In this document: in pieces, positions 41,687 through 53,009 of the stretch | Layout of the letters: each line of letters opens with the position of its first letter | Numbering within the stretch: position 1 is the first letter of the stretch | NCBI RefSeq assembly: GCF_030433855.1 | Contig: NZ_JARUXC010000005.1 | Location: 1-64,000 of the forward strand | Length of the DNA stretch: 64,000 nucleotides | From: Agreia sp. PsM10 | Lineage (GTDB): Bacteria > Actinomycetota > Actinomycetes > Actinomycetales > Microbacteriaceae | Direction of reading: 5' to 3' | Translations under genes and position numbers: made by a program | Notes under the pieces: model-generated | The model's input: the letters and a program-made list of their open reading frames with translations, nothing else | Database searches by the model: none | What the model was told of the DNA's origin: nothing

Positions 41687-43342
41687 TCAGCCCAGTCGCA
41701 GGTGCGAGGTGATGAGGTGGCCGGGCACCGGCAGGTGGCTGATGATCACGACGGCCCGGCGACCGTCGGGGTCGGTGGATGCCGCCAGCAGGTCGGCGAT
41801 GAGCGCGTCGGCCCGGTCGGGGTCGACGTTGGCCGTGGGCTCGTCGAGCACGAGCACGGGGAAGTCGGCGAGGAGGGCTCGTGCCAGGGCGATGCGCTGG
41901 GCCTGGCCCCCCGAGACGAGCGAGCCGCGCTCGCCGACCCGGGCATCCAGACCACCTCGACCCTCGACCCATTCCGACAGCCCGACCCTCTGGAGAACCG
42001 CGAGCAGCTCGGTGTCGCTCGCATCGTCGCGGGCGAAGAGCAGGTTCTGCCGGATCGACTCGTCGAACAGGTACGGGATCTGCTCGGACAGCCCGACGAC
42101 CCGGCGCACGTCGACGAGCGGCAGGCTGCGCACGTCGACGCCGCCCAGGCTGTAGGAGCCCTCGAACTCGAGGAACCGCACGAGCACGTGCGCGAGCGTG
42201 GTCTTTCCCGAGCCGCTCGCCCCCGTGACCAGGATGCGGTCGCCCGGCGAGATGGTGAGGTCGACTCCCCGGATCGCCGGCGATGCCGCCTGCGGCCACG
42301 TGGCCGAGACGCCCCGGAGTTCGATGACCGTGCCCGTCGGCTCGGCGGTGCGGGTGTCGACGGCAGGCCCGTCGACGGGAATCTCTGGGGGCACGGTGTC
42401 GGGAACGACGGAGGCGACCCGCTCGGCGCTCGAACGCACCTGACGCAGGGCAGCGAGGGCGAGGGGCACACTCGACACGACCTCGAAGACCGCGATGGGC
42501 ACGAGGGCGATGATCGCCAGCACCGGTCCGTTGAAACCGGGCGTTGCCAGCGCGGGGATGCCGACCAGGAGGGCCGCGACGCTCGCGGCACCGGCGAGAA
42601 GCGACAGAATGCCCGTGGCGACCCCCGAGCCGGCGGCGCTCGAGAGCACGGCGCGGGTCAATCGACGGTCGGCGGTCTCGACGGCGGCCAGGCGGGAGCC
42701 GGTCGCGTCGAACGCGGTGAGCACGTCGAGGTTGACGACGGTGTCGAGCACCTCGTCTGCGAAGGCGCCCCGGAGCGGCGCGATCGACCGCTCCGACCGT
42801 GCCGCGATGACGCTGTTGACCACCGTGCCGACGAGGGCGGCCAGCAGGAGGGCGACGAGGAGGGCGATGCCGGCCGCCGGCAGGAGTATCCAGACCGTGA
42901 CCACGCTGGTGGCGGCGACCGCGCCCGAGATGAGCAGGGGCTGCACGACGCGCAGGGGCAGGTTCTGCAGCTCGTCGACGTCGGCCGTGAGGCGGGTCAG
43001 CAGGTCTCCGCGCCGGGTGCCCGACAGGCCGTCGGGCGCCAGCGGAACGAGGCGTTCGTAGATGCCGACGCGGAGCGTGGCCAGGGTGCGGAACGCCGCG
43101 TCGTGGCTGGCGAGACGCTCCGCGTAGCGGAAGCCCGCCCTGCCCAGCGCGAAGGCCCGCACCCCGACGATCGCCATGTTGAGGTAGAGGATCGGCGGCA
43201 TCTCGGCCGCCCGGGTGATCAGGTAGGCCGAGGTGGCGATCAGTCCGACGGCGCAGAGGGCGCTGAGCAGGCCGAGCAGCGCACCCGGGGCGAATCGGCG
43301 CGCCCGCGGCTGTGCGAGGCGCAGCACCTCTGTCGTGCGCAT
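41687..43342 (-). CDS. cydC: Thiol reductant ABC exporter subunit CydC
   Basis: 551 aa half-transporter with six membrane helices (about 15-300) and an ATPase domain with Walker A GASGSGKTT, signature VSGGQAQRIALARALL and Walker B VLVLDEPTANVD. CydDC exports cysteine or glutathione (in actinobacteria probably other thiols) and is needed to assemble cytochrome bd. The open frame continues far upstream inside cydD in another frame; ATG at 43342 overlaps the cydD TGA by one base. Last gene of cydABDC. Confidence 0.94.
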   Translation of the reverse strand: MRTTEVLRLAQPRARRFAPGALLGLLSALCAVGLIATSAYLITRAAEMPPILYLNMAIVGVRAFALGRAGFRYAERLASHDAAFRTLATLRVGIYERLVPLAPDGLSGTRRGDLLTRLTADVDELQNLPLRVVQPLLISGAVAATSVVTVWILLPAAGIALLVALLLAALVGTVVNSVIAARSERSIAPLRGAFADEVLDTVVNLDVLTAFDATGSRLAAVETADRRLTRAVLSSAAGSGVATGILSLLAGAASVAALLVGIPALATPGFNGPVLAIIALVPIAVFEVVSSVPLALAALRQVRSSAERVASVVPDTVPPEIPVDGPAVDTRTAEPTGTVIELRGVSATWPQAASPAIRGVDLTISPGDRILVTGASGSGKTTLAHVLVRFLEFEGSYSLGGVDVRSLPLVDVRRVVGLSEQIPYLFDESIRQNLLFARDDASDTELLAVLQRVGLSEWVEGRGGLDARVGERGSLVSGGQAQRIALARALLADFPVLVLDEPTANVDPDRADALIADLLAASTDPDGRRAVVIISHLPVPGHLITSHLRLG

Positions 43343-45030
43343 CAGGCCACCATCGTTGCGGGCTCGAGCGCGAGGATGCCGTCCGCGGCGCGGGCGATCG
43401 CCTCGCGGTGCGTCACGACGATCAGGGCCAGACCCGTGCTCTCGACGAGGCCTTCGAGCCCCCGCACCAGCCGCGCCTCGGTCTGGTCGTCGAGGGCCGA
43501 GCTCGGCTCGTCGAGCACGAGCACGGACGACCGCCGCTCGAGGGCCCGGTAGACGGCCCGCGCTATCGCGACGCGCTGCGCCTGCCCGCCCGACAGTCCG
43601 GCACCGGCCACGCCGAGCGGTCGATCGAGGTCGATCTCGTCTGCGGCGGCGATCTCGAGGGCGCGCGCCGCTCGGGCCCGATCGGGGGCGGCGCTGCCCA
43701 GGGTCACGTTCTCGAGCACCGAGCCCGCCATGAGCCCCGGGCGCTGGCCGCACCACGAGACCCAGTCGAGACCCGTGTCCCCCGGTGCGATCTCGTCGCC
43801 GCCCAGCGTCGCGCGACCGGTGTGCGGAACGAATCCCAGCAGGGCGGCGACGAGGGTGGACTTGCCCACGCCGGAGGGGCCCATGACGGCCGTCAGCCTT
43901 CCGGGGGCGAACTCCGCATCGATGGGACCGATCACCGCACGGCCGTCGTAGCCCGCACCGAAGCCGGAGAGCACGAGCGACCGGGACGACCGGGGCTCCT
44001 GAAGATGGCCCGGGTGCGGGCCGACGGTGCCGTCGAGCTCGTCCTCCGGATCGACGACACCTTTGTTCGCTGCCGCTGCCGCTGCATCGAGGATGTCGAA
44101 CACGTCGTCGGCGGCCGCGACCCCGTCGGCCGCGGCGTGGAACTGGATGCCCACCTGCCTGAGCGGAAGGAACGCCTCGGGCGCGAGGAGCAGCACGAAC
44201 AGTCCGACGGAGAGGCCGAGCGACCCGTCGATCAGCCGGAGGCCCACCGACACCGCGACGACGGCCACCGCGAGGCTCGAAACGAGCTCGAGCACGAATC
44301 CGCTGAGGAACGACACGCGCAGCACCTTCATGGTCTGAACGCGATACTGCTCGGTGACATCCCGGATGCGCCCGGCCTGGCGTTCGGCCCGTCCGAAGAG
44401 CGTCAGCGTCGAGAGACCACCCACGATGTCGAGGAATCCCGTGGACAGCCTTGTGAGCAACTGCCACTGCGTCTTCTGCACGGTCTGGGTCGCCCAGCCG
44501 ATCAGGATCATGAAGACGGGGATGATCGGCAGGGTCAGAACGACCCCGAGGGCGCTGGGCCAGTCCTGCAGGAAGATGACCAGCACGACGACCGGCGTGG
44601 CGATGGCCGTGAGGATGAGCTGGGGAAGGTAGCGGGAGAAGTAGGTGTCGAGGGCGTCGAGGCCTGGTCCGGTGACGGTGGCGACCGACGTGGCGTTGCG
44701 CCCGGCCATCCACCCCGGTCCGAGGTCGACGACGGCTCGGAGGACGCGAGCGCGCAGCTGGCTCTTGACCCGCGCGGCCCCGCGGGTGCTGGTGACCTCG
44801 GCGAGCCAGAGCAGCGCGGCCCGTGCGACCACGACGCCCGCGAGCGCGACGATCGTCGGCGTCAGCGCGGCCAGACTCTCGCCGGCGATGGCGCGCACGA
44901 TCGTCTGGCTCAGGAGCCAGGCGAACGCGACGATGCAGGCCGTCTGGGCCAGGCCGATCACCGCGCCCGCCGCCAGGAATGCCCGGGCCGCCCGGGCGTA
45001 GGCGAGCAGCCGGGGGTCGAGAGGTTTCAC
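43342..45030 (-). CDS. cydD: Thiol reductant ABC exporter subunit CydD
   Basis: 562 aa partner of CydC. Six membrane segments and an ATPase domain with GPSGVGKST, LSGGQAQRVAIARAVY and VLVLDEPSSALDD. The open frame starts upstream, but GTG at 45030, four bases after the cydB stop, gives the normal N terminus VKPLDPRLLAYARAAR. The nucleotide-binding order and the presence of separate C and D genes are as in other actinobacteria that do not fuse cydDC. Confidence 0.94.
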   Translation of the reverse strand: MKPLDPRLLAYARAARAFLAAGAVIGLAQTACIVAFAWLLSQTIVRAIAGESLAALTPTIVALAGVVVARAALLWLAEVTSTRGAARVKSQLRARVLRAVVDLGPGWMAGRNATSVATVTGPGLDALDTYFSRYLPQLILTAIATPVVVLVIFLQDWPSALGVVLTLPIIPVFMILIGWATQTVQKTQWQLLTRLSTGFLDIVGGLSTLTLFGRAERQAGRIRDVTEQYRVQTMKVLRVSFLSGFVLELVSSLAVAVVAVSVGLRLIDGSLGLSVGLFVLLLAPEAFLPLRQVGIQFHAAADGVAAADDVFDILDAAAAAANKGVVDPEDELDGTVGPHPGHLQEPRSSRSLVLSGFGAGYDGRAVIGPIDAEFAPGRLTAVMGPSGVGKSTLVAALLGFVPHTGRATLGGDEIAPGDTGLDWVSWCGQRPGLMAGSVLENVTLGSAAPDRARAARALEIAAADEIDLDRPLGVAGAGLSGGQAQRVAIARAVYRALERRSSVLVLDEPSSALDDQTEARLVRGLEGLVESTGLALIVVTHREAIARAADGILALEPATMVA

Positions 45031-45034
45031 TCGT

Positions 45035-46045
45035 CTAGTGTGCCGCCTGTGCACCCTCGATGTGCGCACGGGTCACCCGCTTGCGGAACACCCAGTAGGT
45101 CCAGCCCTGGTAGGCGAGGATCAGGGGAAGCGCGATGAGGGAGATCCAGCTCATCACCTGGAGGGTGTACGGCGTCGATGAGGCGTTCACGATATTCAGG
45201 CTGTTGGCGGGATCGTTCGACGCCGGCATCACATCGGGGAACAGCGACAGGAAGAGGCTCAGCACGGCGAACGCGACGGTCGCGGCCATCGAGGCGAAGG
45301 CTGCGCCCTCCCTGCCGCGGGAATTCGCGAGCACGGCTGCGATGAGGGTGACCGCGGCGACCGCCGACAGCACCGCGGAGAAGAAGCTGCCGTATGCCAG
45401 GGTCGTCCAGAGCAGGAAGGATGCCGCGACGACGATGGTCAGGATGCCGGATCGTGTCGCCAGTCTGCGCGCTCTCTGCCGCAGGGCGCCGTCCGTCTTG
45501 AGCGAGACGAAGATCGTTCCGTGGGTGAAGAACAGCAGCAGCGTGGTGAGGCCTGCGAGCAGCGCATACGGGTTCAGCAGGTCGAAGAAGGTACCTGTGT
45601 AGTTGAAACCGTCATCGAGGGGCACCCCGCGAATGATGTTGCCGAAGGCCACCCCCCACAGGAATGCGGGAACAGCCGAACCGATCACGATCATGGCGTC
45701 GAAGCGACGCTTCCACGAGGCCTCGGGCCGCTGGTGCCGGTACTCGAACGAGACGCCGCGCAGGATCAGCGACAGCAGGATCACCAGCAGGGCGAGGTAG
45801 AAGCCGGAGAACAGCGTGGCGTACCACTCGGGGAACGCCGCGAACATCGCGGCTCCGGCGACGATCAGCCACGTCTCGTTGAGATCCCAGATCGGCCCGA
45901 TCGTGTTGATGATCACGCGGCGGTCGACATCGTCCTTGCCGAGGAAGGGGATGGACATGCCGACGCCGAAGTCGAAGCCGTCGAGAACGAAGTAGCCGAT
46001 GAAGAGGAATGCGATGATTCCGAACCAGAGGGTGGGAAGGTCCAT
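45035..46045 (-). CDS. cydB: Cytochrome bd ubiquinol/menaquinol oxidase subunit II
   Basis: 336 aa multi-helix membrane subunit with the GYFVLDGFDFGVGM, GPIWDLNETWLI and GNIIRGVPLD segments typical of CydB. It partners CydA and gives structural support to the quinol oxidase. The longer open frame upstream lies inside cydA; ATG at 46045 is two bases after the cydA stop. Confidence 0.96.
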   Translation of the reverse strand: MDLPTLWFGIIAFLFIGYFVLDGFDFGVGMSIPFLGKDDVDRRVIINTIGPIWDLNETWLIVAGAAMFAAFPEWYATLFSGFYLALLVILLSLILRGVSFEYRHQRPEASWKRRFDAMIVIGSAVPAFLWGVAFGNIIRGVPLDDGFNYTGTFFDLLNPYALLAGLTTLLLFFTHGTIFVSLKTDGALRQRARRLATRSGILTIVVAASFLLWTTLAYGSFFSAVLSAVAAVTLIAAVLANSRGREGAAFASMAATVAFAVLSLFLSLFPDVMPASNDPANSLNIVNASSTPYTLQVMSWISLIALPLILAYQGWTYWVFRKRVTRAHIEGAQAAH

Positions 46046-46047
46046 GG

Positions 46048-47484
46048 TCAGTACACCGTCGTTTCTACTCGGCGGACGCCGGTCTCCGGGTCGGGCTGCG
46101 GCAGATCGTCCGGACCCTTCTGGGCGGCCTTCTTGATGAGCTTGAACTCGACCACGGCGAGCGTGCCGTAGATCAGGGTGAAGGCGATCAGCGAGATCAG
46201 CACCTCGAGTCCTGAGACATTCGGCGACACTCCGTCGGCCGTCTTGAGCAGGCCGAAGACGAGCCAGGGCTGGCGGCCCATCTCGGTGAAGATCCAGCCC
46301 ATGATCATGGCGCCGAGCGAGAGCGGGAACGCCCAGATCGCAGCCTTCCACACCCACTTCGACCAGCGGCCGGACAGGGTCTTGGCGCCGAAGACGCTCT
46401 TCTTGCGGGTCAGGACCAGTCCGACGAACGCGGTGAAGACGTGCAGCACGCCGAGGGCGATCATCCAGCGGAACGCCCAGTAGGTGACCCAGATGGTCGG
46501 CGTGTAGTCGCCGGGGCCGTATAGCTGCACATACTGGGCCTGCAGGTCGTTGATGCCCTCGACCGTGCCGTCGAACGTGTGCGTCGACAGGAATGAGAGC
46601 AGGTACGGGATGCGGATCGAGAACAGTTCGCTCGATCCGTCCGGCGTTCCGAGCGTGAAGATGCTGAACGAGGCGTCGGCTCCCGTCGACGTCGTGTACA
46701 TCGCCTCGGCCGCCGCCATCTTCATGGGCTGGGTCTGCACCATGGCGAGGCCCAGCGAGTCGCCGGTGAAGACGGTGAGCGCTCCGGCGATCATCATCAT
46801 CCACAGGCCGAACTTGAGGGCCGGTCGCATCGTGTCGAGGTGCTGGTTGCGTGAGAGGTGCCAGGCGGCCACCGTGACGATGAGGCCCGCAGCCACCATG
46901 AAACAGGCGAAGATCGTGTGCGGGAACGCCGCGAGCGCCACCTTGTTCGTGAGCAGGGCCCAGATGTCGGTCAGCTCTGCGCGCCCTTTCTCCTCGTTCA
47001 TCTGGAAGCCGACCGGGTTCTGCATGAATGCGTTGGCCGCGATGATGAAGTAGGCCGAGAGAATGCTGCCGATGGTCGTCGCCCAGATCGTGGCGAGGTG
47101 CAGGCCCCGGGGAAGCTTGTCCCAGCCGAAGATCCACAGTCCGATGAACGTCGCCTCGAAGAAGAAGGCCAGCAGCCCCTCCATCGCCAGTGGCGCACCG
47201 AAGACGTCTCCGACGAATCTCGAATAGTCGGACCAGTTCATGCCGAACTGGAACTCCTGCACGATGCCCGTGACGACGCCCATGGCGAAGTTGATGAGGA
47301 AGAGCTTGCCGAAGAACTTCGTCAGTTGGAGGTACTTCTCCTTGTCGGTGCGAACCCACGCCGTCTGAAAGAGCGCGACGGTGAGCGCAAGGCCGATCGT
47401 GAGCGGCACGAACAAGAAGTGATACACCGTCGTGAGACCGAACTGCCAGCGCGACAGGAGAAGTGGATCGAGCCACTCGTTCAT
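46048..47484 (-). CDS. cydA: Cytochrome bd oxidase subunit I
   Basis: 478 aa subunit carrying the three hemes of the high-affinity terminal oxidase. RWQFGLTTVYHFLFVPLTIG contains heme ligand H22; the quinol region and the signature EMGRQPWLV are present. It is the first gene of cydABDC, with GAAGGGGA before the ATG at 47484. Two BlaI-type operators lie 26-66 bp upstream between it and the divergent regulator gene. Confidence 0.96.
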   Translation of the reverse strand: MNEWLDPLLLSRWQFGLTTVYHFLFVPLTIGLALTVALFQTAWVRTDKEKYLQLTKFFGKLFLINFAMGVVTGIVQEFQFGMNWSDYSRFVGDVFGAPLAMEGLLAFFFEATFIGLWIFGWDKLPRGLHLATIWATTIGSILSAYFIIAANAFMQNPVGFQMNEEKGRAELTDIWALLTNKVALAAFPHTIFACFMVAAGLIVTVAAWHLSRNQHLDTMRPALKFGLWMMMIAGALTVFTGDSLGLAMVQTQPMKMAAAEAMYTTSTGADASFSIFTLGTPDGSSELFSIRIPYLLSFLSTHTFDGTVEGINDLQAQYVQLYGPGDYTPTIWVTYWAFRWMIALGVLHVFTAFVGLVLTRKKSVFGAKTLSGRWSKWVWKAAIWAFPLSLGAMIMGWIFTEMGRQPWLVFGLLKTADGVSPNVSGLEVLISLIAFTLIYGTLAVVEFKLIKKAAQKGPDDLPQPDPETGVRRVETTVY

Positions 47485-47509
47485 CTGGGATTCCCCTTCG
47501 GAAGTAGAC

Positions 47510-47526
47510 TTCTACACAACGTAGAA
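47510..47526. promoter_or_regulatory. BlaI-type operator 1 in the cydA-blaI region
   Basis: TTCTACACAACGTAGAA: a perfect 6-bp inverted repeat TTCTAC / GTAGAA with a 5-bp spacer. The TAC...GTA half-sites resemble BlaI/MecI operators. It lies 26 bp upstream of cydA, in its predicted 5' leader. Confidence 0.75.
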
Positions 47527-47533
47527 ATCCTTC

Positions 47534-47550
47534 TTCTACAGAGCGTAGAA
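47534..47550. promoter_or_regulatory. BlaI-type operator 2 in the cydA-blaI region
   Basis: TTCTACAGAGCGTAGAA: the same arms and spacer length as operator 1, centred 24 bp from it. It overlaps the predicted -35 of blaI (17 bp before TAGTCT at 47569-47574) and a TATGTT candidate -10 of cydA on the other strand, so a bound repressor would block both promoters. Confidence 0.75.
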
Positions 47551-47580
47551 CATACTCGAACGAAAAGGTAGTCTGGATCC

Positions 47581-47961
47581 ATGATCACTCTCGGCGTCCT
47601 CGAGCGTTCCGTCATGAACGCACTCTGGGAATCGCCCGACGGCCTCTCCGCACCCGAGCTCGGTGAACGACTGGTGGCCGCCGAGGCCCCGGCGAAACGA
47701 CGCGAACTCGCCACCACCACCCTCCTCACCGTGCTTTCACGGCTCGAGAGCAAAGGGTTCGTCTCGCGCACCCGCGCCACGAGGCCGCACCGCTACCACG
47801 CGGTCAACTCGCGATCGGAGCACACGGCCGAGCTCATGCACGAGGTGCTGCAACTGGCACCCGATCGAGACGACGCGCTGGCCCGTTTCGTCGGAAGCGT
47901 CTCGCCGACCGAGGCCGAGACTCTTCGCCGACTGCTCGCATCCCGCGGCACCGGGAACTAG
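47581..47961 (+). CDS. BlaI/MecI/CopY-family transcriptional repressor
   Basis: 126 aa with the penicillinase-repressor winged helix (LERSVMNALWESPDGLSAPELGERL, then TTTLLTVLSRLESKGFVSR) and a C-terminal helical dimer region. Its ATG is six bases after TAGTCT, so the message is probably leaderless. It is followed after 2 bp by an M56 peptidase, the usual regulator-protease pair, and is divergent from cydABDC with two perfect operators between, which suggests control of the oxidase genes as well as itself. Confidence 0.93.
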   Translation: MITLGVLERSVMNALWESPDGLSAPELGERLVAAEAPAKRRELATTTLLTVLSRLESKGFVSRTRATRPHRYHAVNSRSEHTAELMHEVLQLAPDRDDALARFVGSVSPTEAETLRRLLASRGTGN

Positions 47962-47963
47962 CC

Positions 47964-48908
47964 GTGCTCGGAGCCTGGACCGGGCTCGCGATCCTCGCCC
48001 TCGCCTTGGCGTGGCCCGTTCCCATCGCGCTGTCGAGGGCCGCGTGGCCCGCCCGCGCGCCCGGCACGGCACTCGCGCTCTGGCAGGCCATCGCGCTCGC
48101 CGGGGGCCTGTCGATGATCGGCGCCCTGCTCGCGTTCGGACTGACGCCGTTCGAGAACGACGCGGGCGTCGCATCCACCCTGCTGTCGGGCCACCTGCTC
48201 GACGGCCCCCTCCCCTCGCAGACCGGCGCACTGCAGATCGTCTCGCTGGCCGGAGCCGTGGTGCTCGGAGCCCATCTCGTGCTGAGCCTCGCCACGACCG
48301 CGGTCAGCACCGCGCGCGAGCGTCGGCGGCACAGGGCACTGATCGCCCTGCTGAGCTCTCCGGTGCAGGGCAGCCCGGGAACGCGCATGCTCGACTTCCC
48401 CGCCCCCGTGGCCTACTGCCTGCCCGGGGTGCGCTCGATCACCGTGCTCACCGAAGGGCTCGTGCGGGTTCTGGATGCCGCACAACTGCGCGCGGTGCTG
48501 GCCCACGAGCGGGCCCACCTGCGCCAGTACCATCACCTCGTGCTGCTCGCCTTCAAGGCGTGGAACATCGCCCTGCCCTGGTTTCCCATCGCGAATCGGG
48601 CCGAGAAGGCGGTCGCCACGCTCGTCGAGATGCTCGCCGACGACGACGCACGGCGCGAGGTCGACGATGCGTCCCTCGCCACGGCGATCGCGATCGTCGG
48701 GTCGCCCTGGCGCGACGGAGACCCGGCGTCTGCACCCGTCGCATCCGACGAGATCGTGCCCGAGGCCGACCCTGAGACGCTCGGGGCGCGGGTGTCACGC
48801 CTCATCTCCCCGCCGGGACCCCTCTCCCCCGCGGCCCGCGCGCTCGTGCTCGGCATGGGCGTCGCTCTCGTCGCGGCGCCGGTCGCCGTGCTCGTCACCC
48901 TGTTCTAG
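47964..48908 (+). CDS. M56-family (BlaR1-like) membrane metallopeptidase
   Basis: 314 aa. Hydrophobic segments at about 3-25, 38-60, 92-115 and 285-313 surround a cytosolic gluzincin domain with the zinc motif HERAH (181-185) after LRAVLA. There is no C-terminal penicillin-binding sensor domain, unlike BlaR1, so the inducer is not a beta-lactam bound in the classic way. GTG start at 47964. It presumably inactivates the adjacent BlaI-type repressor, by analogy. Confidence 0.9.
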   Translation: MLGAWTGLAILALALAWPVPIALSRAAWPARAPGTALALWQAIALAGGLSMIGALLAFGLTPFENDAGVASTLLSGHLLDGPLPSQTGALQIVSLAGAVVLGAHLVLSLATTAVSTARERRRHRALIALLSSPVQGSPGTRMLDFPAPVAYCLPGVRSITVLTEGLVRVLDAAQLRAVLAHERAHLRQYHHLVLLAFKAWNIALPWFPIANRAEKAVATLVEMLADDDARREVDDASLATAIAIVGSPWRDGDPASAPVASDEIVPEADPETLGARVSRLISPPGPLSPAARALVLGMGVALVAAPVAVLVTLF

Positions 48909-48957: not shown

Positions 48958-49629
48958 GTGAACGAGATTCTCAGCTGGATCCTGGACACGGTGTCGAGTG
49001 TCGACCCCGTCTGGCGCACCCTCATCGCCGGTGTCGCCATGCTTCTCGAGACGAGCATCCTGCTCGGTCTCATCGTGCCCGGAGACACCGTGCTGCTCGT
49101 CACGGCGACCGGTGTGCAGGGTCCCGTGCAGTATTTCGCTCTCGCCCTCGCATCGATTCTCGGCGCCCTCGCGGGCGAGAGCATCGGGTTCATGCTCGGT
49201 CGCTACTTCGGACCGCGCATCCGTCATTCCCGCCTCGGCAGGCGCATCGGCGAACGGCACTGGCAGCGCGCGGAGCGCTACCTCGATCGCCGCGGCGGCA
49301 TCGCCGTGTTCCTGTCGCGCTTCCTGCCCGTGCTTCACTCGCTGATCCCCGTCACCGTGGGCATGAGCACGATGGCCTATCGACGCTTCATCGCGTGGAC
49401 GCTGCCCGCATGCGTCCTCTGGTCGTTCGCCTACGTCACCGCCGGGTCGGCAGCCGCGGGCGGATACAGGGAACTGGCGGACCAACTGCACTTCGCCGGG
49501 TACATCTTCGTCGGGGTCATCGTGGTGTTCGTGATCGTGGTGATCGTGGTGAAGAAGCTCATCGCCCGCGGCGAGGAGCGGCACATGGACGACGCGCCCG
49601 AGAAGGAACCCGCGCCGGAACGGGAATGA
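48958..49629 (+). CDS. DedA-family membrane protein
   Basis: 223 aa. The family core is seen in LLETSILLGLIVPGDTVLL, GESIGFMLGRYFG and FLSRFLPVLHSLIPVTVGMSTM, with five or six hydrophobic segments and a charged C-terminal tail. DedA/SNARE-associated proteins include polyprenyl-phosphate and phospholipid flippases. GTG at 48958 is six bases after TAGGCT (48946-48951), consistent with a leaderless message. Confidence 0.93.
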   Translation: MNEILSWILDTVSSVDPVWRTLIAGVAMLLETSILLGLIVPGDTVLLVTATGVQGPVQYFALALASILGALAGESIGFMLGRYFGPRIRHSRLGRRIGERHWQRAERYLDRRGGIAVFLSRFLPVLHSLIPVTVGMSTMAYRRFIAWTLPACVLWSFAYVTAGSAAAGGYRELADQLHFAGYIFVGVIVVFVIVVIVVKKLIARGEERHMDDAPEKEPAPERE

Positions 49630-49681: not shown

Positions 49682-50608
49682 CTAGAAGAGCTTCTTGTCG
49701 TCGAGCCAGGCCTTCGCGATGACCTCGGCGGACTTCTGGTCGTTGACGCTCTGCGAGTTGAGCTCGACCAGATCGTCTTCCGTCAGAGCCGCGCTGACCT
49801 TATTGATGATGTCGGCCGCCTTGTCGTCGACCTTGGTCGATGCGACGGGAACGACATTGTCGGCCACGAACAGTCCGTCGGGGTCGGTGAGGGCCACGAG
49901 GTTGTTGGACTTGATGTTGGGGTCGGCCGTGTAGATGTTGCCCAGCTGGATCGTGTTGTCGACGAGCGCTTTCACGGTCAGCGGTCCGCCGGAGTCCTCG
50001 ATCGACTGGAACGTCGTATCGATGCCGTACTTCTCCTTCAGCGTGGCGGGACCGTAGGGACGGGTCTCGAGTTCGGCGTTGCCGCCGACGACGATCGGCG
50101 TCGTCACGTTCTTGAGCGACGCGATGTCGGTGAGGTTGTTCTCGGAGGCATAGGCCTCGGTGACCGTGTAGGAGTTCTGGTCGGACGCCTCCGACTTGTC
50201 GAGCACGCGAAGGCCCTCGGGCAGGGCCGACTCGAGCGCGGTGTAGACGTCGTCGCTCGTCGTGGCCGTCGTGTCGGGCTCGAGCGCCTGCAGCAGGCTG
50301 CCGGTGTACTCGGGGAACAGGTCGATCTTGCCGGCCTCGATCTCGGGCAGGTAGACCTCGCGCTGGCCGATGCGGAACTGGCGATCGACGGTGTAGTCGT
50401 TGGCCTCGAGCGCCTGGGCGTAGATCTCGGCGATGATCTCGCTCGAGTAGTAGTCCTGCGAACCGATGACGATGGAGTCGGTGCTGGCCGAGTCACTCGA
50501 TCCGGCGTCCAGCGGATCGCTCGTTGCGCACCCTGCCAGTGCCACCACGGCACCGACCGCGATAACGCCTGCGGCGATCCGGCCCTTCCTAATGTTTGCT
50601 GTGAACAT
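49682..50608 (-). CDS. Osmoprotectant ABC transporter substrate-binding lipoprotein
   Basis: 308 aa. A lipoprotein signal with lipobox LAGC (Cys27) is followed by an OpuAC-type periplasmic fold (IVIGSQDYYSSEIIAEIYAQ, EIEAGKIDLFPEYTGSLL, LGNIYTADPNI). Such proteins bind quaternary ammonium compounds such as glycine betaine, choline or carnitine; the exact ligand is not evident. It is the last gene of the four-gene transporter set, 2 bp after a permease gene. Confidence 0.93.
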   Translation of the reverse strand: MFTANIRKGRIAAGVIAVGAVVALAGCATSDPLDAGSSDSASTDSIVIGSQDYYSSEIIAEIYAQALEANDYTVDRQFRIGQREVYLPEIEAGKIDLFPEYTGSLLQALEPDTTATTSDDVYTALESALPEGLRVLDKSEASDQNSYTVTEAYASENNLTDIASLKNVTTPIVVGGNAELETRPYGPATLKEKYGIDTTFQSIEDSGGPLTVKALVDNTIQLGNIYTADPNIKSNNLVALTDPDGLFVADNVVPVASTKVDDKAADIINKVSAALTEDDLVELNSQSVNDQKSAEVIAKAWLDDKKLF

Positions 50609-50610
50609 CG

Positions 50611-51348
50611 TTATTTCCTCTCTTCGGTGGGAGACCCCACCACCGCGACGCGTCGGGGTGACGACGTGCGGACATCTGTGTTCTGGTTCGCGACGACGCC
50701 GCGTGGTACGACCAACTTCTGGATGATCGCGAAGATTCCCTCGCTGAGCAATGCGAGCGCGATCACGAGAAGGGAACCCGCGAGCATCTGCGGATAGTCA
50801 TTGGACTTCAGGCCCACGAAGATGAACCGTCCCAGCCCGCCGGCACCCACGTAGTCGGCGAGAGTCGCCGTCGCAATGATCTGCAAGGTCGCCGAGCGGA
50901 GGCCGCCGATCAACAACGGAAGGCCCAGCGGCACCTCGACCTTGCGCACGATCTGCCACTCCGTCATTCCGACAGCCCTGGCCGAGTCGATCGTGCGACG
51001 ATCGATCGCCTCGAAACCGGAGTAGGCGCCGGCCAGGATCGGTGGGACCGCCAGCACCACCAGTGCGATAACGGGGGCCTCCACCCCGATTCCGAGCCAG
51101 AGCGCGAGAACGATGAGCAGTCCGAGGGTCGGGAGCGCCCTGAACCCACCGGTCAGGCTCACGGCGAGGCTCCGGCCGCGGCCGGTGTGGCCGATGAGGT
51201 ATCCCAGCGGGATCGCGATCACGCTCGAGATCACCAGCACGACGAGACTGATCGTGAGGTGCTGCACGAGACGGATCGGGATACCGTTCGGTCCTCCGAG
51301 ATGCGCGGGATCGAATATCCAGGCGAATGCCTCGACGAGGAGGTTCAC
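50611..51348 (-). CDS. Osmoprotectant ABC transporter permease (second)
   Basis: 245 aa BPD-type permease with about five membrane helices and the EAA-like loop AIDRRTIDSARAVGMTEWQIVRKVEVPLGLPLLIGG. The longer open frame upstream is in another frame of the neighbours. GTG at 51348 overlaps the first permease stop by 4 bp. The C-terminal tail of about 30 polar residues is unremarkable. Confidence 0.93.
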   Translation of the reverse strand: MNLLVEAFAWIFDPAHLGGPNGIPIRLVQHLTISLVVLVISSVIAIPLGYLIGHTGRGRSLAVSLTGGFRALPTLGLLIVLALWLGIGVEAPVIALVVLAVPPILAGAYSGFEAIDRRTIDSARAVGMTEWQIVRKVEVPLGLPLLIGGLRSATLQIIATATLADYVGAGGLGRFIFVGLKSNDYPQMLAGSLLVIALALLSEGIFAIIQKLVVPRGVVANQNTDVRTSSPRRVAVVGSPTEERK

Positions 51349-52031
51349 GATGCGGCCGCCTCTGCGGTCAGACGTGCGCGGCGTGTCGAAGCGACGCGTG
51401 TCGCCCGCGTCCACGGCATGACCAGTCTGCCGATGAGCACGAGCACGGCGTCGATCAGCAGGGCCAGCGCGATGGTGGCGACCATGCCGGCCAACACCTC
51501 CGCCACGATGTTGCGCTGCAACCCGTCGGTGAAGAGCAGCCCGAGGCTCTTGATGCCGAGGACCGCGCCGACGGTCACCAGGCTGACGGTGCTGACCGCC
51601 ACGACACGGATGCCGGCGAGCAGCACCGGCCCCGCCAACGGGAGATCGACCTTCCAGAAGCGCGTCCAGGGCGAGAATCCCATCGCGGTGGCCGACTGGC
51701 TGATGTCCGACGAGACCGAGCCGAGCGCATCCGACGTGGTGCGCACCATCAGCGCGATGCCGTAGAGGGTGAGCGCGACGACGACGTTGATCGAGTCCCT
51801 CGCGCCGGTTCCGAGGATGATCGGAAGAACGATGAGCAGGGGAAGCGACGGAATCGCGTACAGCAGGCCGAGCACGGTGAGCAGCACGCCGCGGCTCGGG
51901 CGGTAGCGGTTTGCCAGCCAGCCGAGCGGCACCGAGAGCACGAAGCTCAAGACGATGGGCGGGATGCTGAGGGCGAGATGCTCGAGGGTGCGCTGGCCGA
52001 TGAGGGGCAGGTTCTCGATGATCCAGTTCAT
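51345..52031 (-). CDS. Osmoprotectant ABC transporter permease (first)
   Basis: 228 aa BPD-type permease, about five helices, with EAA-like loop GSVSSDISQSATAMGFSPWTRFWKVDLPLAGPVLL. It forms the channel with the second permease. ATG at 52031 overlaps the ATPase stop by 4 bp and its own end overlaps the next permease by 4 bp, so the set is tightly coupled. Confidence 0.93.
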   Translation of the reverse strand: MNWIIENLPLIGQRTLEHLALSIPPIVLSFVLSVPLGWLANRYRPSRGVLLTVLGLLYAIPSLPLLIVLPIILGTGARDSINVVVALTLYGIALMVRTTSDALGSVSSDISQSATAMGFSPWTRFWKVDLPLAGPVLLAGIRVVAVSTVSLVTVGAVLGIKSLGLLFTDGLQRNIVAEVLAGMVATIALALLIDAVLVLIGRLVMPWTRATRVASTRRARLTAEAAAS

Positions 52032-52873
52032 GCGGGTGCGTCTTTGCTGCCGCCGGTCGGGCCGTCCACCAGCACTCCGGCCGCGCGACCCTCGCTGTCG
52101 AGCACGATTTCGCGGCCGTCCCGCCGGTCGATGTGCAGCGCCCGCTTGCCCTTCGTCGCCCCGATGAAGTCGGCCACGAAGTCGTTCGCGGGGGCACTGA
52201 GGATCTCGGTGGGAGACCCCTTCTGCACGATGACGCCGCCCTTCTGCAGGATGACGACCTGGTCGCCCAGGAGGAAGGCCTCGTCGATGTCGTGGGTGAC
52301 GAAGACGACGGTCTTGTCGAGTTCGCGCTGCAGGCGGATGAGCTCCTGCTGCAGTTCGGCGCGCACCAGGGGGTCGACCGCGCCGAAAGGCTCGTCCATG
52401 AGCAGGATGTTCGGGTCGGCCGCGAGCCCGCGCGCGACGCCCACACGCTGCTGCTGCCCGCCCGAGAGCTGGCTCGGGTAGCGGTTCGCGAGCGAACGAT
52501 CGAGGCCGACCGTGTCGAGCAGCTCGAGTGCGCGTTCGTGAGCCTGCTTCTTCGGCACGCCGTTGAGCAGGGGCACGGTCGCCACGTTGTCGATGACCTT
52601 GCGGTGGGGCAGCAGGCCGGAATTCTGCATGACGTAACCGATGCGCCGACGGAGCTTCACCTTGTCGAGTCCGACGATGTCTTCGCCGTCGATCTCGATC
52701 GAGCCCGAAGTGCGGTCGATCATGCGGTTGATCATGCGGAGGATGGTGGTCTTGCCACAGCCCGAGGAGCCCACGAAGACCGTCGTCTTGCGCGAGGGGA
52801 TGACGAGGCTGAAGTCATCGACGGCGAGTGTGCCGTCGGGGAACTGCTTCGACACCTGACGGAACTCGATCAT
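52028..52873 (-). CDS. Osmoprotectant ABC transporter ATP-binding protein
   Basis: 281 aa. Walker A GSSGCGKTT, signature LSGGQQQRVGVARGLA, Walker B ILLMDEPFGAVD and the H-loop VTHDIDEAF. The protein ends with a short tail rather than the paired CBS domains of some OpuA/OpuC ATPases, so it lacks that ionic-strength sensor. The open frame extends 27 codons upstream, but ATG at 52873 begins the canonical IEFRQVSKQFPDG. Confidence 0.94.
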   Translation of the reverse strand: MIEFRQVSKQFPDGTLAVDDFSLVIPSRKTTVFVGSSGCGKTTILRMINRMIDRTSGSIEIDGEDIVGLDKVKLRRRIGYVMQNSGLLPHRKVIDNVATVPLLNGVPKKQAHERALELLDTVGLDRSLANRYPSQLSGGQQQRVGVARGLAADPNILLMDEPFGAVDPLVRAELQQELIRLQRELDKTVVFVTHDIDEAFLLGDQVVILQKGGVIVQKGSPTEILSAPANDFVADFIGATKGKRALHIDRRDGREIVLDSEGRAAGVLVDGPTGGSKDAPA

Positions 52874-53009
52874 GTCTTGGCCCGTTCGTCTGGCGCGCCC
52901 GAGTGCACGCGTGTATGACCAGCCAAACACGGAGCGCCGCGATAGGCAAAGCACACCCGTTGGGCATGACGAATTGTGTCCGGCAGGCTAAGGTGCAGCC
53001 GATCGCACG

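Follow-up and report, generated by a model that had tools for sequence, protein, structure and literature searches.

A BlaI-family repressor with twin operators beside the cytochrome bd genes of Agreia and its relatives: a candidate switch for respiration and haem genes

Introduction

The BlaI family of repressors is best known for switching on penicillin resistance. In the actinomycete Agreia sp. PsM10, a member of this family stands back to back with the genes for cytochrome bd, and two palindromes lie in the gap between them. The question raised by this locus is whether the repressor and the membrane protease encoded beside it govern the oxidase genes, only themselves, or a wider set of genes, and to what kind of signal they would answer. 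The locus was analysed in a window, the whole stretch of 64,000 nucleotides at positions 1 to 64,000 of contig NZ_JARUXC010000005.1, and was followed through the rest of the genome and through related genomes.

Layout of the locus

Two sets of genes diverge at the locus, which comprises the following features:

41687 to 43342, minus strand: cydC, ABC exporter subunit (TIGR02868, 522.6 bits)
43342 to 45030, minus strand: cydD, ABC exporter subunit, start codon inferred (TIGR02857, 547.6 bits)
45035 to 46045, minus strand: cydB, cytochrome bd subunit II (PF02322, 373.5 bits; TIGR00203, 332.2 bits)
46048 to 47484, minus strand: cydA, cytochrome bd subunit I (PF01654, 541.6 bits)
47510 to 47526, no strand assigned: operator 1, TTCTACACAACGTAGAA, exact match, kept in relatives, 25 bp upstream of the cydA start codon
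47534 to 47550, no strand assigned: operator 2, TTCTACAGAGCGTAGAA, exact match, 30 bp upstream of the blaI start
47569 to 47574, plus strand: putative blaI -10 element TAGTCT, 6 nt before the ATG
47581 to 47961, plus strand: BlaI-family repressor, 126 aa (PF03965, 67.3 bits)
47964 to 48908, plus strand: membrane metalloprotease, 314 aa (PF01435, 37 bits; HERAH at 181-185, E222, D226)

The cydABDC set is complete, with both oxidase subunits and both subunits of the CydDC exporter matched above cut-off, and the scores against PF01654, TIGR00203, TIGR02857, TIGR02868 and PF03965 all exceed the curated cut-offs. The divergent cydA and blaI genes are separated by 96 bp (47485-47580), and the metalloprotease gene follows immediately 3′ of blaI on the same strand. 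Profile matches and coordinates agree with the original prediction, in which a cluster in the order cydA-cydB-cydD-cydC was divergent from a BlaI-type repressor.

Directly 3′ of the protease gene (window 48958-49629) lies a gene of the DedA/VTT family, which has weak similarity to the undecaprenyl-phosphate transporter UptA at a score far below its cut-off; a DedA/VTT gene occupies the same place in the same genus and in loci L025-L027. From the translations, window positions 49682-52954 read as a cluster of a lipoprotein for substrate binding, a pair of permeases and an ATPase, similar to an osmoprotectant ABC transporter.

The repressor and its partner protease

The repressor matches PF03965 (Penicillinase_R) with 67.3 bits against a cut-off of 22.6, over profile positions 1-114 of 115, and is the one PF03965 gene found in its genome. 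The nearest solved chain is 2g9w (E 2.3e-15), which is the BlaI of Mycobacterium tuberculosis and is 44% identical to the repressor. The copper repressors CopY/CopR belong to the same superfamily, as a weak match to the CopY/TcrY equivalog TIGR02698 indicates, yet at 20.3 bits this match is far below the cut-off of 121.95, and the earlier operator core of CopY/CopR, as given in PMC7253601, is TACANNTGTA.

The partner was originally taken for an M56 protease. While the BlaI half of that proposed pair is upheld by PF03965, the M56 half is not, as the only Pfam match of the protease is PF01435 (Peptidase_M48; 37 bits, E 3.9e-9) and none to PF05569 (Peptidase_M56) was obtained at E ≤0.001; even so, its predicted fold is closest to BlaR1. 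The HExxH motif and downstream Glu of the BlaR1/MecR1-type zinc protease part are present, and H181, E182, H185, E222 and D226 are invariant in 42 aligned protease sequences. An AF2 model (pLDDT 90.2) finds its best structural match, among the chains compared, in Staphylococcus aureus BlaR1 (Z 10.7, rmsd 5.2, 211 residues), a Z value below the aligner's safe level, given that helical models with Z below about 13 can share a common arrangement. The BlaR1 entries range from 8.8 to 10.7, M48 proteases from 5.5 to 9.9, and all other rows reach at most 6.0; Foldseek alone gave no better than E 8e-3, and the protease sequence has no match among solved structures at E ≤1. The alignment extends only up to BlaR1 residue 290, and the protein, at 314 aa, has no penicillin-binding sensor domain. 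By closest fold, the protease would therefore correspond to the transmembrane and zinc-protease part of a BlaR1-like protein, and its length and predicted fold support the earlier claim that the partner lacks a penicillin sensor. The conserved cysteine C152 was considered as a candidate redox sensor and rejected: the residue is invariant in the 42 aligned sequences, but of nine homologues further removed, four retain it and five have another residue.

Twin operators and promoter layout

Both operators are perfect 17-bp palindromes of the form TTCTAC-N5-GTAGAA, with identical and fully complementary arms, 5-bp spacers (ACAAC and AGAGC) and centres 24 bp apart, exactly as had been predicted. A scan of the window allowing up to three mismatches gave 14 matches, where shuffled sequences averaged 3.9 (sd 2.0, largest 8); the two operators are the only exact ones, and the other twelve each carry three mismatches. 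In the whole genome (4,010,356 bp) there are no exact operators beyond these two, and the reversed-pattern control gave none. Relaxed searches of the same genome returned no excess over control at up to one mismatch (7 versus 9) or up to two (88 versus 177), so that by number the exact sites alone stand out, and a degenerate regulon in this genome, as judged by site counts, was rejected.

A sigma-70 consensus promoter scan of 47400-47700 gave no match. Among 62 blaI upstream regions, that of the window included, 19 have a TANNNT motif whose end is 4-10 nt from the start codon (6.3% in shuffled sequence), and in 18 of these 19 its distance from the last GTAGAA is 17-20 nt; the other 43 regions are without this layout. 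A putative promoter of blaI would thus have its -35 position at the right arm of operator 2, and TAGTCT, if it is the -10 element, would give a leaderless mRNA. A similar arrangement of promoter and operator is seen by eye upstream of hemE. On the other side of the gap, 35 regions give a distance of 15-94 bp (median 32) from cydA to the nearest operator; they are the usable ones among 36 with a gap below 250 bp, out of 48 loci in which both genes are complete.

The operator accompanies the repressor

A sample of 60 genomes of relatives, that of Agreia sp. PsM10 included, yielded a repressor homologue in 29. The 19 closest repressor loci (L017-L035, again including the locus under study) all have a divergent cydA, and 18 have exact operators, one to four each; L034, a close orthologue locus, has none. 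Among the next 11 loci (L036-L046), a divergent cydA was found in three and an exact TTCTAC operator in none. At two of these three, L038 and L039, where distant BlaI genes are divergent from cyd genes, palindromes of the form TACTAC-N5-GTAGTA replace TTCTAC-N5-GTAGAA in the gap.

An order-wide sample of 297 genomes contained 53 holders of a close orthologue, defined by a chosen threshold of E ≤1e-25. Exact operators are present in 49 of the 53 holders against 7 of the 244 other genomes, a contrast whose significance by the Fisher test is overstated by shared ancestry, as genomes of one clade are not independent; the exact site is absent from four holders. Site totals follow the same division, with 231 in holders (reversed control 14) and 11 in the others (control 22), and a threshold of E 1e-20 gives 50 of 54 against 6 of 243. 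Because cydA was found in 272 of the 297 genomes, the presence of the operator goes with that of the repressor rather than with that of cydA. Genus g53 provides a cleaner, though small, test than the order-wide count: operators occur in three of three holders and in none of nine non-holders, all nine of which have cydA. There are also holders in which no cydA was found, namely G117 (15 sites) and G159 (five).

Linkage of BlaI-type genes to cyd genes extends further. Of the 19 genomes of family f18 that gave a repressor match, 16 have a more distant BlaI gene on the cydA strand, about 4.4-4.8 kb downstream of cydA (by eye; G053, G281 and G323 are examples), so the linkage is wider than the TTCTAC operator type.

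cydA as a probable target

A gene-blind scan for twin sites across contigs of GTDB species returned at least 120 stretches, with 80 loci among the matches listed. In 72 of these 80, cydA lies beside the twin sites, and in 65 of the 72 a divergent blaI is present as well. Five listed loci have a BlaI-family gene and no cydA (three Aurantimicrobium, a Tyzzerella and a planctomycete MAG), and in three neither gene is recognisable within the stretch, namely L057, L075 and L101, from a Clostridia, a Verrucomicrobiales and an Oscillospiraceae MAG. In Aurantimicrobium genomes of the kind without cydA in the stretch, a further exact site (L253 and L254) adjoins a ferric-reductase-like membrane gene (assigned by Pfam for L253 only). 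The original prediction had named the loss of the operators beside cydA in relatives as a result that would count against it; they are conserved in 18 of the 19 close loci, and cydA stands beside the twin sites in 72 of the 80 listed.

Seven listed loci have cydA and no repressor in the stretch. One of them (L111) is merely cut off at the stretch end, and in the other six the blaI orthologue lies elsewhere in the genome (Arthrobacter sp. 260, A. echini, three Nesterenkonia and Pseudonocardia endophytica). In all six, cydA retains its twin sites and the protease gene adjoins the detached blaI, whose own operator is exact in four and one mismatch off in two. Dyad sites are thus found both at the repressor's own gene and at cydA, as twin sites where the two share a gap and as separate sites where blaI is detached, and this is the pattern expected from a trans-acting repressor of both. 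Taken together, these comparisons support the conclusion that the operators go with the repressor and would tie it to cydA.

Further sites in relatives

Five of the detached-blaI genomes carry 11, 13, 12, 7 and 23 exact sites, against 1, 0, 0, 0 and 0 in the control, and the Pseudonocardia genome carries three against none. The neighbours of a part of such sites were surveyed in 20 genomes (five detached-blaI, eight of family f6 and seven of family f7), giving 124 sites at 118 loci. With genes assigned by a crude caller, 99 of the 124 lie within 250 bp of the start of a gene pointing away from the site, compared with 25% of 2,360 points drawn at random from those stretches, and seven lie well inside a called gene, compared with 74% of the random points.

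Of the 124 sites, 33 have no assigned target, and the counts that follow describe recurrence, not functional enrichment, because the seeds used to define targets were drawn from these very stretches. The HemQ/chlorite-dismutase family (Pfam) occurs at sites in 10 of the 20 genomes, a universal stress protein gene in eight, and a flavohaemoglobin gene in seven, in three of which an Rrf2-family gene stands beside it. CtaG and a TlpA/ResA-type thioredoxin were each met in six genomes. Histidine phosphatase together with YceI, a neighbourhood which we take to be a cytochrome c maturation locus, was met in four, as was a pyridoxamine-oxidase-like gene; diheme cytochrome c was met in three and isocitrate lyase in two. 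Cytochrome oxidase subunit II, haem O synthase (UbiA family), SURF1 and SdhC occur in three genomes each, all of them Nesterenkonia, and two neighbour families without a Pfam match recur in five genomes each. Some neighbours are without an obvious link to respiration, among them an aldolase, a class II tRNA synthetase, CarD, adenylosuccinate synthetase and a ManC-like gene. The last of these, a nucleotidyltransferase gene, is divergent from sdhC in the Nesterenkonia loci L208, L221 and L243 (Pfam for L208 only), where the sdhC site lies in their common gap, and it could be envelope-linked.

Genomes with 7-23 exact sites suggest that this operator is found, in some relatives, at many genes of haem, respiration and nitric oxide (NO). 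The predicted link of repressor, operator and cydA is upheld by comparative genomics but was drawn too narrowly. At the level of sequence, comparison shows a partnership of operator and repressor, a position near gene starts and recurrent neighbours.

A candidate haem synthesis site in the Agreia genome

Among the five one-mismatch sites in the genome of Agreia sp. PsM10, one (GTCTACGTCGTGTAGAA, contig C53) falls within the 56 bp that separate the divergent genes hemA (PF05201) and hemE (PF01208); hemE is followed by a hemY-like gene. Because one-mismatch sites are not in excess (7 versus 9), this site has to be judged by its place and its conservation. It is found in seven of seven genomes of the genus (own genome included, G005 left out), where the arms are the same throughout and the spacers are of four kinds; it was not seen in G008 and G009, the two genomes of other genera that were checked, whose GTCTAC sites lie elsewhere. 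This conservation suggests that the regulon in the Agreia genome probably consists of cydABDC, the blaI-protease operon and haem synthesis. Three further one-mismatch sites (L005, L006 and L008) were dropped, as they lie inside open frames of high GC3. The remaining one, TTCTACAGGCTGTAGAT (G000:C13:91224-91240; L004:1501-1517), is upstream of a stretch that by eye resembles tRNA-Ser, and similar ATCTAC-N5-GTAGAA sites are found in G001, G002, G003 and G007.

Proposed mechanism and alternative explanations

The explanation that we regard as likely is that the BlaI-family repressor, on its twin sites, blocks cydABDC and its own promoter, and that the sensor-less protease frees them upon respiratory or haem disturbance. 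A repressor dimer would bind both TTCTAC-N5-GTAGAA sites and so block the divergent cydABDC promoter as well as its own, a form of autoregulation in which repressor on the site at the -35 position would exclude RNA polymerase. A disturbance of the respiratory chain or of the haem supply would lead the BlaR1-like zinc protease without an extracellular sensor to release the repressor, most simply by cleaving it, and cytochrome bd would be made. In the genus of the window the repressor would probably also hold the divergent hemA/hemE promoters through the weaker site, and in some relatives it may control genes for haem synthesis, cytochrome maturation, aa3/bc1, bd and flavohaemoglobin. Binding, repression, proteolysis and signal are steps that we infer: repression is assumed from the BlaI family, cleavage and the nature of the signal are likewise drawn from family analogy, and activation may take the place of repression at these sites.

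It is improbable that the sites only autoregulate blaI and the protease gene beside a passive cydA. BlaI-family operators do typically sit at their own genes, the sites here are common to both genes, and the three Aurantimicrobium loci among the matches listed combine twin sites with a blaI-protease pair and no cydA in the stretch; against this, the six detached-blaI genomes keep the twin sites at cydA and have a single site at blaI elsewhere, and sites recur at hemQ, hmp, ctaG and other genes. It is highly improbable that the palindromes serve a different regulator such as Rex, a Crp-type protein or a sigma factor, since the operator is nearly absent from genomes without the repressor (7 of 244) though most of these have cydA, and since it is found at blaI itself even when that gene is detached. 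What speaks for such a regulator is that SigC, OxyR and HrrA are reported to act on cyd genes in Corynebacterium glutamicum.

An envelope or beta-lactam stress switch, in which the protease would sense cell-wall damage and the oxidase would be induced within an antibiotic response, as proposed for M. tuberculosis, is unlikely, although it has the history of the BlaI/BlaR1 family behind it and a beta-lactam plus clavulanate is reported to induce blaR-blaI and cydAB in M. tuberculosis. The DedA/VTT gene downstream, with its weak similarity to undecaprenyl-phosphate transporters, and the sdhC site facing the ManC-like gene in three Nesterenkonia point the same way. Set against these are the missing sensor domain of the protease (by length and predicted fold), the absence of a beta-lactamase among the Pfam-scanned operator neighbours, which are a part of all neighbours in a set where 33 of 124 sites have no target, and recurrent neighbours that are mostly haem, cytochrome and NO genes. 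The target list would favour a respiratory, haem or NO signal over an envelope signal.

Relation to known systems

The S. aureus pairs BlaI/BlaR1 and MecI/MecR1 resemble the present one in having a PF03965 repressor and a partner with the BlaR1-like transmembrane and zinc-protease fold; they differ in that the pair described here has no penicillin-binding sensor domain and has a putative respiratory target. The operator sequence of S. aureus BlaI/MecI also differs from TTCTAC-N5-GTAGAA.

Closer at hand is the M. tuberculosis pair BlaI (Rv1846c)/Rv1845c, which includes the nearest solved repressor and whose partner protease is said to be without a beta-lactam sensor domain. The statement in the original prediction that mycobacterial BlaI touches respiration genes is in print at second hand: a paper citing Sala et al. 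2009 (eLife 2017, PMC5473688) names the promoters of cytochrome bd and of ATP synthase as bound by M. tuberculosis BlaI, and its binding to the ATP synthase operon promoter by EMSA is given in PMC12565901. The cyd link as such has therefore already been reported for one species. Unlike that system, the present pair is transcribed away from cydABDC across a common gap that contains the twin operators, there is no beta-lactamase among the neighbours scanned, and, as far as the citing papers allow comparison, the sites in relatives span haem, cytochrome c, aa3/bc1 and flavohaemoglobin genes. The HrrSA system of C. glutamicum has similar targets (haem synthesis, ctaE-qcrCAB, ctaB and cydAB; PMC7337898), yet it is a two-component system that activates oxidase genes, and its proteins are unrelated to the repressor-protease pair. 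Cyd-linked BlaI/protease pairs or such a regulon in Micrococcales were not found in a literature search that had most subscription journals outside its reach; within that search, what appears to be new is the conserved unit divergent from cyd, together with its twin operator and with the haem, respiration and NO sites in Micrococcales.

Significance

The comparisons suggest that a BlaI/BlaR1-like switch is employed for respiration and haem. A broader proposal, somewhat easier to doubt than to accept, is that in Micrococcales the pair is a master repressor of a haem and respiratory-chain regulon and not an antibiotic switch, perhaps ancestral in Actinomycetes, with a sensor-less protease that reads the respiratory chain, haem supply or NO, and that in the genus of the window this regulon has been pared down to cydABDC, the repressor's own operon and hemA/hemE. 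Control of cytochrome bd in actinobacteria bears on hypoxia, NO and drug tolerance, and a compact unit of repressor, protease and operator tied to cydA in many environmental genera makes the question testable in strains that are harmless. The sharpness of the operator lets a haem and respiration regulon be read across many genomes, and the findings suggest that BlaI/BlaR1 is a more general switch, of which the response to beta-lactams is one use.
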